In this document: piece after piece, positions 35,020-41,033 of the stretch
How positions within the stretch are numbered: the first letter of the stretch is position 1
How the letters are laid out: every line of letters begins with the position of its first letter
NCBI GenBank assembly: GCA_026421185.1
Contig: JAPKCH010000010.1
Span: 1-50,483 of the forward strand
Length of the DNA: 50,483 bases
Direction: 5' to 3'
Source of the DNA: Dehalococcoidia bacterium
Lineage (GTDB): Bacteria > Chloroflexota > Dehalococcoidia > Lucifugimonadales > Lucifugimonadaceae
Translations under genes and position numbers: made by a program
The notes under the pieces: generated by a model
The model's input: the letters and a program-made list of their open reading frames with translations, nothing else
The model's database searches: none
Told to the model about the DNA's origin: nothing

Positions 35020-36045
35020 ATGCATGTTGGAACTCAGGTAGCAGCACGGAACGACTCGGATTTTGAACAGTGGGCACAGCTTGGGGTGGTGAACATCTGC
35101 TCCGACCCACCGGGCGATCCGCATGGCTGGACTGTCGATGACCTGAAGCGTCACCGTGAAAAGGTCAACTCGTATGGAATCGAACTCGATATGGTTCAGA
35201 TTCCTCTTTCATCGACGCCGATTGATCGTTCACAGTCACCGAACGTAATGCTCGGTAAGAGCCCTGAACGTGACCGAGAAATCGATTCGATTCAGAATAT
35301 TATTCGTATTTGCGGCGAAGTTGGCATTCCGGCAGTCAAATACAATATGAACATCATTGGCATCCCGCGCTCGGAGCGTGAGGAAGGTCGAGGTGGATCT
35401 TCAAACTCGACATTCAGATGGTCGAAAATGGACCAAGACGCACCCCCCACCATTGCCGGCGTTGTTGGAATCGAAGATAATTGGGAACGCATCGAATACT
35501 TCCTATCGCGAGCTGTTCCAGCAGCTGAATCGGCTAAAGTGCGCTTGGCTTGCCACCCGCACGACCCGTACACGCCAGATGGCTACATGGGCGTGACTCG
35601 GGTGCTCGGAACTATAGATGGCATGAAGAAGTTTGTGCAGATGCACGAAAGTGAATACCATGGTCTGAATTTCTGTCAGGGCACAGTTACTGAAATGCTC
35701 GACGACCCAGGTAAAGAAATCGCTGATGTGATCCGCTGGTTCGGTTCACGAAATAAGATATTCAACGTTCACTTCAGAAACATTCGTGGACACAAGCTCG
35801 ACTTCATGGAAGCCTTCCCGGACGAAGGTTCGATCGACTTCTCAGAGATCATCAAGGTCTATCAAGAAGTTGGATACAAGTACATGCTGATGCCTGACCA
35901 CGTTCCTGATATCAGCGGTGACGATGCTCAAGGAACAGCGTTTGCGTTTTGCTATGGTTACATTTCGGCTTTGCTTCAGGGCATCGACGAGCCACGCAAG
36001 CAGCCGTGGGTAACGAAGGCTCCTAAAGGCGAAGGCGCTTGGTAA
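35020..36045 (+). CDS. uxuA: Mannonate dehydratase (UxuA family)
   Basis: The 341-residue TIM-barrel protein resembles the xylose-isomerase-like mannonate dehydratases, which turn D-mannonate into 2-keto-3-deoxygluconate with a divalent metal. VKYNMNIIGIPRSEREEGRGG is present in part as VKYNMNIIGIPR. LACHPHDPYTPDGYMG holds the metal-binding His and matches the HPDDPP element of UxuA. NFCQGTVTEM, FNVHFRNIRG with metal His, and LMPDHVPD agree. It has a strong GGAGG site nine to ten bases upstream of the ATG. It lies 2 kb from a ManD-type enzyme, which catalyses the same reaction with an unrelated fold. Confidence in the family is high; the exact substrate could be a related acid. Confidence 0.85.
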   Translation: MHVGTQVAARNDSDFEQWAQLGVVNICSDPPGDPHGWTVDDLKRHREKVNSYGIELDMVQIPLSSTPIDRSQSPNVMLGKSPERDREIDSIQNIIRICGEVGIPAVKYNMNIIGIPRSEREEGRGGSSNSTFRWSKMDQDAPPTIAGVVGIEDNWERIEYFLSRAVPAAESAKVRLACHPHDPYTPDGYMGVTRVLGTIDGMKKFVQMHESEYHGLNFCQGTVTEMLDDPGKEIADVIRWFGSRNKIFNVHFRNIRGHKLDFMEAFPDEGSIDFSEIIKVYQEVGYKYMLMPDHVPDISGDDAQGTAFAFCYGYISALLQGIDEPRKQPWVTKAPKGEGAW

Positions 36046-36119
36046 CTAGCTTGCTGGACAACTTTTCTTCCTGTGGGAAAGGAGATGGGTGAGTTTAAGA
36101 AAGATTTCGAGGGGACTTG

Positions 36120-36623
36120 ATGACGAAAATAGAAGAAGCGAACGATCCGGTTGCATACCGGTCGCATGTACGCATTGAACGTGTGAAGGGTCCGATCCGT
36201 AGAGCGTTCATACCCGCTCATGATGGTCCTGTGATGCTTGGAGTTCACTCCGAAGTAGCCGAACACTATGGAGTCGACAACAACGTCGTCGATCCGTATA
36301 CGACCACTCTGGATTACGTCATCGCTTCAACCGCTGGTTGAATGACTGGAACATTTGGCGGTGCCCTTGAGGCTCGCGGGATTCCGGCTGGCGATGGCTT
36401 CCTTCACTCAGACAGTGTTGGCGAGCTTGAAAAAGAGAGTGGTGTACTTGTGATCAAGCGCGTTCACGTGAAGTACACGCTGAAAGTCGATTCAGCGCTA
36501 CGTGAAGAGAAAACCGCAGCGATTCAGCGGGCGTTTGATTTGCACGCAGATTCATGCCCGGTGTATCGAAGTATCTACACTAGTATCGACATCACGAAAG
36601 AACTTGAAATCGTCGAGGCGTAG
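36120..36623 (+). CDS. OsmC-family protein, probable selenoprotein (in-frame TGA at 36339-36341)
   Basis: Two open stretches in the same frame, 73 and 93 codons, are split only by a TGA. Together they make a 167-residue OsmC/YhfA-like protein. The text around the TGA reads DYVIASTAG-TGA-MTGTFGGALEARG. In OsmC relatives this place (AxxGGC) holds the peroxide-reactive Cys. The second conserved Cys is present in ADSCPVYRS. Sequence after the TGA is fully family-like, with no sign of decay, which argues for selenocysteine rather than a broken gene. Sec-containing OsmC-like proteins are known from marine metagenomes. The protein should reduce organic hydroperoxides. The start ATG has GAGGGG five bases upstream. 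It follows the uxuA gene on the same strand. No selenium-insertion genes are in this window. Confidence 0.82.
36358..36377 (+). promoter_or_regulatory. Candidate bacterial SECIS-like hairpin
   Basis: GCG (36358-36360) and GCC (36363-36365) can pair with CGC (36375-36377) and GGC (36371-36373), leaving a CTTGA loop 24 bases after the TGA. An alternative small GGC-GGT-GCC hairpin (36357-36365) puts GGT in the loop 18 bases after the TGA. Either is at the right distance for a bacterial SECIS, but I could not compute folding. Confidence 0.35.
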
Positions 36624-37044: not shown

Positions 37045-38343
37045 CTATGGCTTGACCATTGATCCGTCGGCTCGTCTAACGGTGTCCCACGCTCCGCCAA
37101 ACTCGCGTTCTTTGAACGGGAATTTGGCGGCCATATCTTCATCGATGTCGATGCCGAGACCAGGCTTACCGTTTGACCACATCATGCCATCCTTCAGTGT
37201 TGGAGTTCCAGGGAACATCTCGCGAGTTCGCTCCGAAGGAATGTTGGCTTCCTGAATACCGAAGTTGTAGGTGTTCAAGTTCAACATCATGTTCGCAGCG
37301 TGACCAACAGGCGAAGTATCGCCAGGGCCGTGCCATGCAGTTCGAACGTTGTAGAGTTCCCCCATTGCAGCAAGTTTACGGGCCGGTGTGATTCCACCGA
37401 TCTGAGACATATGAATTCGGATGAAATCCATCAGACGGTTCTGAATCATCGGAACCACTTCGTGTGGGTTGTTGTGCAGTTCACCCATTGCTATTGGAGT
37501 GGCGCACTGCTCGCGAACCATCTTGAAATAGGCCTGGTCTTCAGGGCTGAACAGGTCTTCTAGGAAGAACAGCTGGTACTTCTCGACTTCTTTTGCGAAC
37601 CAAACACCTTGAATCGGTGGTATTCGTTCGTGAACGTCGTGAAGAATTTCTAGTCCGTATCCGAACCGTTCTCGGATGTATTCAAATAGACCCAGAGCCG
37701 ATCGCATGTATGGCTTGGGTTCGTAGACTCCACCCGGGTGAGCGTAAAGCTTGTCAGCTTGGTATTCACGCAGCCAATCGGTGTTGGCGATAGGGCCTTC
37801 GAGTACGTTTTGGTTGCCGCCGGAGTTCGTGCCAGTAGCTGCGTTTTTGTTGCCGTAGGTTGCGTATCCAGGAGTAGACATCTGCACACGGACGTGGTGG
37901 AAGCCTTGTTCTACGTAGGCCTGAACCTTGTCACCGACTTCTTCGTGAGTTTCACCAGAAGTGTGAACGTAAACAGGGGCTGCCACGCGTGCTCGACCAC
38001 CGAGTAGGTCGTACACAGGCATGCCTGCCATCTTGCCTTTGATGTCCCAGAGCGCCTGGTCGACGCCAGAAAGTGCGTTGTTCAGCACTGGACCGTTGCG
38101 CCAGTAAGACGAAACGTACGACGATTGCCATATGTCTTCGATGTCGGCTACGTTTCTGCCGATAAGGAAGGGTCGTAAATAGTCATCGACAGCAGCCGCT
38201 ACTGCAGTTGGTCGCTGTGTGAAGGTTGCACAGCCGATGCCGTAAAGACCTGGTTCAGAAGTTTCGATCTTGACGATAACGAGCCGAATATTGTCTGGCT
38301 CAGTGAGAATAGTCTTGATATCTCGAATCGTTACATTGCTCAT
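37045..38343 (-). CDS. manD: D-mannonate dehydratase family (ManD/RspA)
   Basis: The 432-residue enolase-superfamily member has the ManD signature. D236 and H238 lie in LHDVHER, E262 in LEDLF, E288 in AMGELHNNPHE and H338 in AWHGPGDTSPVGHAAN. The long loop rich in Gly and Asn (about 158-185) is also ManD-like. Family members dehydrate D-mannonate, some also D-gluconate, and some have little activity (RspA), so the name is a family call. A convergent terminator lies at its end. It is followed, upstream on the same strand, by the NHL-repeat gene, with a 230-base gap. Confidence 0.9.
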   Translation of the reverse strand: MSNVTIRDIKTILTEPDNIRLVIVKIETSEPGLYGIGCATFTQRPTAVAAAVDDYLRPFLIGRNVADIEDIWQSSYVSSYWRNGPVLNNALSGVDQALWDIKGKMAGMPVYDLLGGRARVAAPVYVHTSGETHEEVGDKVQAYVEQGFHHVRVQMSTPGYATYGNKNAATGTNSGGNQNVLEGPIANTDWLREYQADKLYAHPGGVYEPKPYMRSALGLFEYIRERFGYGLEILHDVHERIPPIQGVWFAKEVEKYQLFFLEDLFSPEDQAYFKMVREQCATPIAMGELHNNPHEVVPMIQNRLMDFIRIHMSQIGGITPARKLAAMGELYNVRTAWHGPGDTSPVGHAANMMLNLNTYNFGIQEANIPSERTREMFPGTPTLKDGMMWSNGKPGLGIDIDEDMAAKFPFKEREFGGAWDTVRRADGSMVKP

Positions 38344-39875: not shown

Positions 39876-41033
39876 TTAGACCAGGTTGGCGTTCACATAG
39901 TTCCAGTCGAACTCGAATCCGAGCCCCTGCCCCTGCGGGATGCTTACGAAGCCGTTTTCGTCCATTGGATCACACGGTTGCTTGAGGTGCGGCGGAACTA
40001 ATGAGTCGTAGTCCTCTTCGGGTCGCAGTAGGCCTCGTTCGTAGTATTCACAAGTCTCTTCCGACGTCGAGGCTAACAACGCCAAATTAGCGAATCCAAC
40101 GTACTCAAGCTCACACTGCATCCCGATCGCTTCGTAGAACCCAAGCGCTTTTCGAACGCCGGTAATACCTCCAAAGCTGACGTCGATCCGCCCCATGTCT
40201 GAAGCGTTCTGCATCGCCCATTCGGCGCGGGAGTAGAGACTGCCGGGTTCTGTTTCAGGCCCGAGAATGGATATATCGAGCGCTTCTGCCAGCTTACGAT
40301 ACGGTTCGGTCTTGCGTTCGTCCATCGGGTGTTCGAGCCAGTAGTAGTTGAGCTTTTCGATCTCACGCCCAACGTATAACGACTCCTCGAACGTGTAGAT
40401 GCCATACGGATCGAGCATCAGAACCATGTCGTTGCCGACAGCGTCTCGAACTGCCCGGCATATCTCTAGATCGGCTTCCGGGAACGCCGGTTTGCTGGGA
40501 GCGGGCTCCTCTTTTTCAGGGTTCCAGTAGATGTTGGCGTGGACCTTGTAGGCGGTATAGCCACGTTTTTTCATTTCGACAGCATGGGCGGCGTAGACCT
40601 CGGGTGATCCGAGGTTCGGAGCAGAGCTAGCGTATGCTTTGACCTTGTCTCGATAGCCACCCAAAAGCTGTGCAACCGAAACTCCTGCCGACCGACCTGC
40701 CAGATCCCACAGCGCACAGTCCACCGCTCCGATCACCGCTTCAGAGATCCCGTGATGACCCATCATCCACTGCCACAAAAGTTCTCGATTCAGCGGGTCT
40801 TCGCCGATCAATAACGGCTTCACCAGCTGCTCGATAACTTCCGTCGTCGGTGCCACAAGGTACATATTGTCCCCTGTGAAAAATCCCTCGGCACCTTCGT
40901 CGGTTTCGATCTTGAGAATCCGGTGAACCTCGTCGTGTTGCTCTCCCCAAACCTCATAACCCCATTTACTTGGGTTAGACCTAGATTTACCTTTGAACGA
41001 AATTACTTTTACATCGGTTATTTTCATCGCCAT
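39876..41033 (-). CDS. Enolase-superfamily (mandelate racemase-like) protein with altered active site
   Basis: The 385-residue protein has the metal ligands D208 (MLDPYG), E234 (WLEHP) and E260 (LGPETE). The strand 2 motif is K163-V-H165 (YKVHAN), where relatives usually have K-x-K. The strand 7 position that usually holds the catalytic His reads CELEYVGFANLALL, so E310 takes its place. It probably still binds a metal and an acid, but the chemistry may differ. It begins with ATG at 41033, next to a 10-base C run in the divergent intergenic region. Confidence 0.87.
   Translation of the reverse strand: MAMKITDVKVISFKGKSRSNPSKWGYEVWGEQHDEVHRILKIETDEGAEGFFTGDNMYLVAPTTEVIEQLVKPLLIGEDPLNRELLWQWMMGHHGISEAVIGAVDCALWDLAGRSAGVSVAQLLGGYRDKVKAYASSAPNLGSPEVYAAHAVEMKKRGYTAYKVHANIYWNPEKEEPAPSKPAFPEADLEICRAVRDAVGNDMVLMLDPYGIYTFEESLYVGREIEKLNYYWLEHPMDERKTEPYRKLAEALDISILGPETEPGSLYSRAEWAMQNASDMGRIDVSFGGITGVRKALGFYEAIGMQCELEYVGFANLALLASTSEETCEYYERGLLRPEEDYDSLVPPHLKQPCDPMDENGFVSIPQGQGLGFEFDWNYVNANLV

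Follow-up and report, generated by a model that had tools for sequence, protein, structure and literature searches.

An OsmC-family gene in a marine SAR202 genome (Chloroflexota, Dehalococcoidia) is crossed by a single in-frame TGA, which raises the question of whether this codon interrupts the gene or is read as selenocysteine (Sec). The gene lies in a 50,483-nucleotide stretch of contig JAPKCH010000010.1, the whole of which is referred to as the window. Judged from the sequence, TGA 36339-36341 is very probably read as Sec. The complete reading, to which we assign a probability of about 96%, is that of a Sec-OsmC gene whose full-length protein is produced with the help of SelA, SelD, SelB and a downstream hairpin, and in which U74 and C146 would form a redox pair (table 1).

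With the TGA taken as a residue, positions 36120-36620 encode 167 residues and are closed by a TAG at 36621-36623; no other TGA is found inside the frame. The upstream limit of the frame is an in-frame TGA at 36090, and an AGGGG (36110-36114) is located five bases 5' of the ATG. The joined protein matched the Pfam OsmC family (PF02566) with an E value of 2.7e-9 and 37.8 bits, passing the gathering cut-off of 27.5. The initial annotation had read two frames joined by a TGA alone as one protein with a second conserved Cys in an SCPV motif; translation and the Pfam match bear out the former, and the latter was found as C146. The window has 292 in-frame TGAs that are flanked on each side by an open run of 20 or more sense codons; among them, the TGA of the OsmC gene ranked first when both flanks were scored for coding-like codon use (0.139 vs. 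0.083 for the next site).

Table 1. Features of the OsmC-family locus, in window coordinates
Feature	Position	Strand	Remark
Predicted Sec-containing OsmC-family gene	36120..36623	+	167 residues + TAG stop
Predicted Sec codon TGA (U74)	36339..36341	+	Reactive Cys position of OsmC proteins
C146 codon (SCPV), second conserved redox residue	36555..36557	+	Invariant in 28-row alignment
Putative bacterial SECIS hairpin	36358..36377	+	7 bp, one bulged base, loop CUUGA
UxuA-like (PF03786) TIM-barrel gene	35020..36045	+	Directly 5' of the OsmC gene; context, outside the Sec mechanism

The predicted fold of the protein is the OsmC fold. In detail, an AlphaFold2 model built from 28 sequences of the window and its relatives reached a pLDDT of 85.6, and its best structural matches were OsmC/Ohr proteins (Foldseek E value 1.9e-6). 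VIA-align 2 superposed the predicted model on 3cje with Z 12.4 and an rmsd of 2.5 over 124 residues, and on Escherichia coli OsmC with Z 11.3. A sequence search of solved structures did not find OsmC. In the model, U74 is placed within a long helix (residues 63-85) and C146 right after another one (125-145). Both OsmC redox positions, that is, position 74 (TGA) and C146, are invariant in the alignment of 28 rows, with invariant residues flanking the TGA on both sides.

The TGA is conserved throughout the relatives. The gene or pieces of it were found in 37 of the 120 genomes of the relatives search, and one TGA is present in each match that extends across the site. Extending the search by profile to 393 genomes of the class and to 400 of the phylum yielded further copies, and all matches covering the site had the same codon, with two exceptions. 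TGA-bearing orthologues occur in about 90 distinct Chloroflexota genomes (hand count), with identities down to ~30%, and they include the cultured SAR202 Candidatus Lucifugimonas marina JH1073, which has a closed genome. Of 77 sequences aligned by codon, 75 have TGA in this column, one has TGC (Cys) and one TGG (Trp). The motif U(M/L)xGT is present in every aligned TGA row. The Cys exception (L163, genome G806) is a single long-branch sequence and is a case which Sec/Cys exchange predicts. In the Trp exception (L164, G742:C49:15837-16214), the normal N-terminal frame is gone, which suggests decay of a Sec gene; ~29 N-terminal residues are out of frame, yet the genome has selA. In the phylogenetic tree, the window protein groups with its own genus, and a second, deeply branching clade (f60 and others), also with TGA, is set apart. 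Nearly all relatives found in the phylum carry the same TGA, so that this is very probably a genuine selenoprotein gene.

The machinery for Sec is encoded in the window's own genome, in which selA (518 bits, cut-off 268), selB (313 bits, cut-off 242) and selD (370 bits, cut-off 125) were identified. For selD (L021, G000:C83:31871-32797), Sec is predicted as well, its in-frame TGA lying at TCAGUAGK. The respective tRNA-Sec is represented by its 5' half only, cut by the very end of contig C35; these 58 bases, identical to JH1073, include the anticodon loop CTTCAAC. An Rfam search for tRNA-Sec in this genome gave tRNA-Ser (gct) alone above the threshold, and the partial copy came to light when the JH1073 gene was used as the query of a DNA search. 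Scanning for a tRNA-Sec pattern returned chance-like matches only. Six relatives, JH1073 among them, have the full tRNA-Sec with anticodon TCA. Several genomes of the genus (G000 and G012; L168, L072 and L075) have contigs that end at or within tRNA-Sec, and G012 has the gene at two contig ends, suggesting that it lies in a repeat or an integration site. In the phylum sample, selA occurs in 34 of the 35 genomes with the TGA gene versus 322 of the 400 overall (hand count), a modest enrichment that is uncorrected for relatedness; the TGA-bearing genome G561 of this sample gave no selA match.

Three other explanations of the TGA were weighed. An internal stop seen in one genome alone resembles a broken gene, and a nonsense mutation or a sequencing error might have split an ordinary Cys-OsmC gene and left a pseudogene. 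This explanation, which we regard as extremely improbable, is refuted by the phylum-wide retention of both the TGA and the frame behind it: the same column holds TGA in the 75 orthologues from many genera and families, the sequence shows no decay downstream, and the codon is also present in JH1073, the assembly of which is a closed PacBio genome (PMC10444878). Translation as two proteins, namely an N-terminal fragment of 73 residues and a C-terminal protein of 93 residues starting at ATG 36342, is just as hard to credit. Reinitiation is possible in principle in the window's genus, where an ATG directly follows the TGA; however, the codon after the TGA is Leu and not ATG in 30 of the 75 sequences, and the location of U74 inside the predicted helix 63-85 means that the fold needs both halves.

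The third explanation accepts readthrough and holds that, through recoding or a changed code, the TGA is translated as Trp or Cys instead of Sec. It draws on the TGG of the one relative described above and is very improbable, if marginally less so than the other two. The copy with TGG looks like a decaying one, the remaining non-TGA case is Cys, as expected from Sec/Cys exchange, the gene has one TGA, at the reactive position, and the Sec pathway is present in the genome. The reading as Sec is therefore retained, and the claims of the initial annotation on this point are upheld. It had held that the TGA is selenocysteine and not a chance nonsense hit, and that both halves are free of decay. 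The former agrees with the conservation of the TGA, the Sec genes of the same genome, for which it had proposed a search (selA, selB and selD, with the contig-cut tRNA-Sec), and the Cys relative; the rank among the window sites and the 75/77 count argue against chance, and the downstream frame is kept in the TGA orthologues. It had also asked whether relatives carry Cys or TGA at the site: close relatives have TGA and one distant relative has Cys.

A hairpin downstream of the TGA is a probable, though not proven, SECIS element as judged from sequence comparison. It starts 16 bases past the TGA, with its 5-base loop from 24 nt past it. In the codon alignment, synonymous sites are constrained at the hairpin, from codon +7 to codon +15 past the TGA. 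In detail, the largest excess of synonymous conservation was found at codons +12, +11, +7, +15, +2 and +13 past the TGA and at +80 (the top seven of 138), and Arg at +12 is written CGC in 66 of the 75 sequences. In a control with codons redrawn and the protein unchanged, codons +5 to +13 folded more stably than expected, with a mean z of -1.66, compared with -0.37, 0.47 and 0.02 in control stretches; the set as a whole is supportive, whereas significance is not reached for the window sequence taken singly (p 0.07). The folding energy of the window hairpin is unremarkable (z -1.07 and -1.01). A consensus fold in a single register over all clades failed, because the position of the hairpin shifts by a few bases from one clade to another, and counts within clades were used instead. 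In sister clades, the 7-bp stem is kept in 28 of 28 sequences, with 196/196 cells paired and one compensatory change. Covariation by itself is too weak to establish the hairpin, as some shuffles reach the observed values, and the near-invariance of the stem leaves little of it to be seen.

According to the published bSECIS model (PMC13188914), the hairpin lies 16-37 nt past the UGA, its apical loop has 3-9 nt, and one of the first two loop bases is a G. The window hairpin agrees with this model in its distance of 24 nt, its 5-nt loop and its stem. On the contrary, the G is fourth in the loop CUUGA of the window's genus, and for this reason the element is graded as probable only; the sister-clade loops GGA and GUU comply with the rule on the loop G. 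The hairpin had been proposed at 36357-36377. It is present one base shorter, with constrained codons, but the energy is not significant by itself and the loop G departs from the model.

The following course is inferred, with respect to Sec insertion itself as well as to the peroxidase chemistry and its substrate. SelA would form Sec-tRNA-Sec with selenophosphate from SelD, and SelB would deliver it to UGA 36339-36341, aided by the downstream hairpin, so that the 167-residue protein is completed. In OsmC/Ohr proteins, the first Cys is the one that attacks the peroxide, and the second is the resolving Cys. U74 and C146 would act as a redox pair in the manner of these two cysteines: the selenol of U74 would attack a hydroperoxide or similar oxidant, the resulting selenenic acid would be converted to a Se-S bond with C146, and this bond would be re-reduced by a cellular dithiol. 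Sec at the first redox position would confer higher nucleophilicity.

In the search for neighboring genes, the UxuA-like gene was located 74 bases upstream of the OsmC gene and in the same orientation. The two genes remain neighbors in several genera of the family; in genus g11, the neighbor was not seen within 1.5 kb on either side of the OsmC gene. From this position alone, the UxuA-like gene may hint at a role of the OsmC gene tied to sugar-acid breakdown. Two genes of the enolase superfamily (MR_MLE) are also found nearby (37045-38343 and 39876-41033), and they fit the expansion of paralogous catabolic enzymes known for SAR202.

As a kind, Sec OsmC-like proteins are already known from marine metagenomes. 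Three sequences with the motif UxxT were reported from the Sargasso Sea in 2005 (PMC1088965) and five with the same motif from the GOS metagenome in 2008 (PMC2398784), and OsmC-like selenoproteins are listed in a 2026 review (PMC13188914). In common with the window protein, they belong to the OsmC family (PF02566/COG1765), have Sec, which in the window protein is predicted, at the redox site, come from marine bacteria, and have Cys homologues and a predicted downstream SECIS. The Sargasso and GOS proteins, compared here by their reported motif, have UxxT, whereas the Chloroflexota set has U(M/L)xGT (UxxG); the two may belong to the same subfamily. Neither PMC13188914 nor PMC2398784 was found to name Chloroflexota or SAR202 as a host. 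Selenium is unmentioned in the SAR202 papers searched, PMC10444878 included, and no paper treating SAR202 and selenoproteins together was found in the literature collection searched, which is an incomplete one.

The window protein resembles the OsmC/Ohr peroxiredoxins (TIGR03562 and TIGR03561; E. coli OsmC 1nye and Pseudomonas aeruginosa Ohr 1n2f) in its predicted fold and in two conserved redox positions, one per protein half. It differs from them in the predicted replacement of the first Cys by Sec and in scores far below the NCBIfam OsmC/Ohr cut-offs. A Sec/Cys OsmC-related family of NCBIfam, OsmC_like_Se (NF041052), shows weak similarity over most of the length, but the window protein scored 14.1 bits, below the curated cut-off of 95. 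Relatives matching this model scored 12-25 bits among the individually tabulated proteins, with a best E value of 1.5e-6 among 28 members. These scores and the motif U(M/L)xGT place the Chloroflexota proteins outside the model, and they perhaps constitute a separate subfamily. A broader proposal seems to us possible but rather doubtful, namely that the UxxGT proteins form a separate and old subfamily spanning the phylum, almost always with Sec, linked to UxuA-like sugar-acid enzymes in SAR202 genomes and acting on a substrate other than the organic hydroperoxides of OsmC/Ohr.

What is added to the known Sec OsmC-like proteins is the host lineage, the near-exclusive use of Sec across a phylum, the motif UxxGT and the scores far below the OsmC_like_Se cut-off. 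The Sec prediction is directly testable in JH1073, since its closed genome contains both the TGA gene and the full tRNA-Sec. The OsmC-family protein would be split or cut short by standard gene callers, and thus a redox enzyme and a selenium requirement of these bacteria would be missed.
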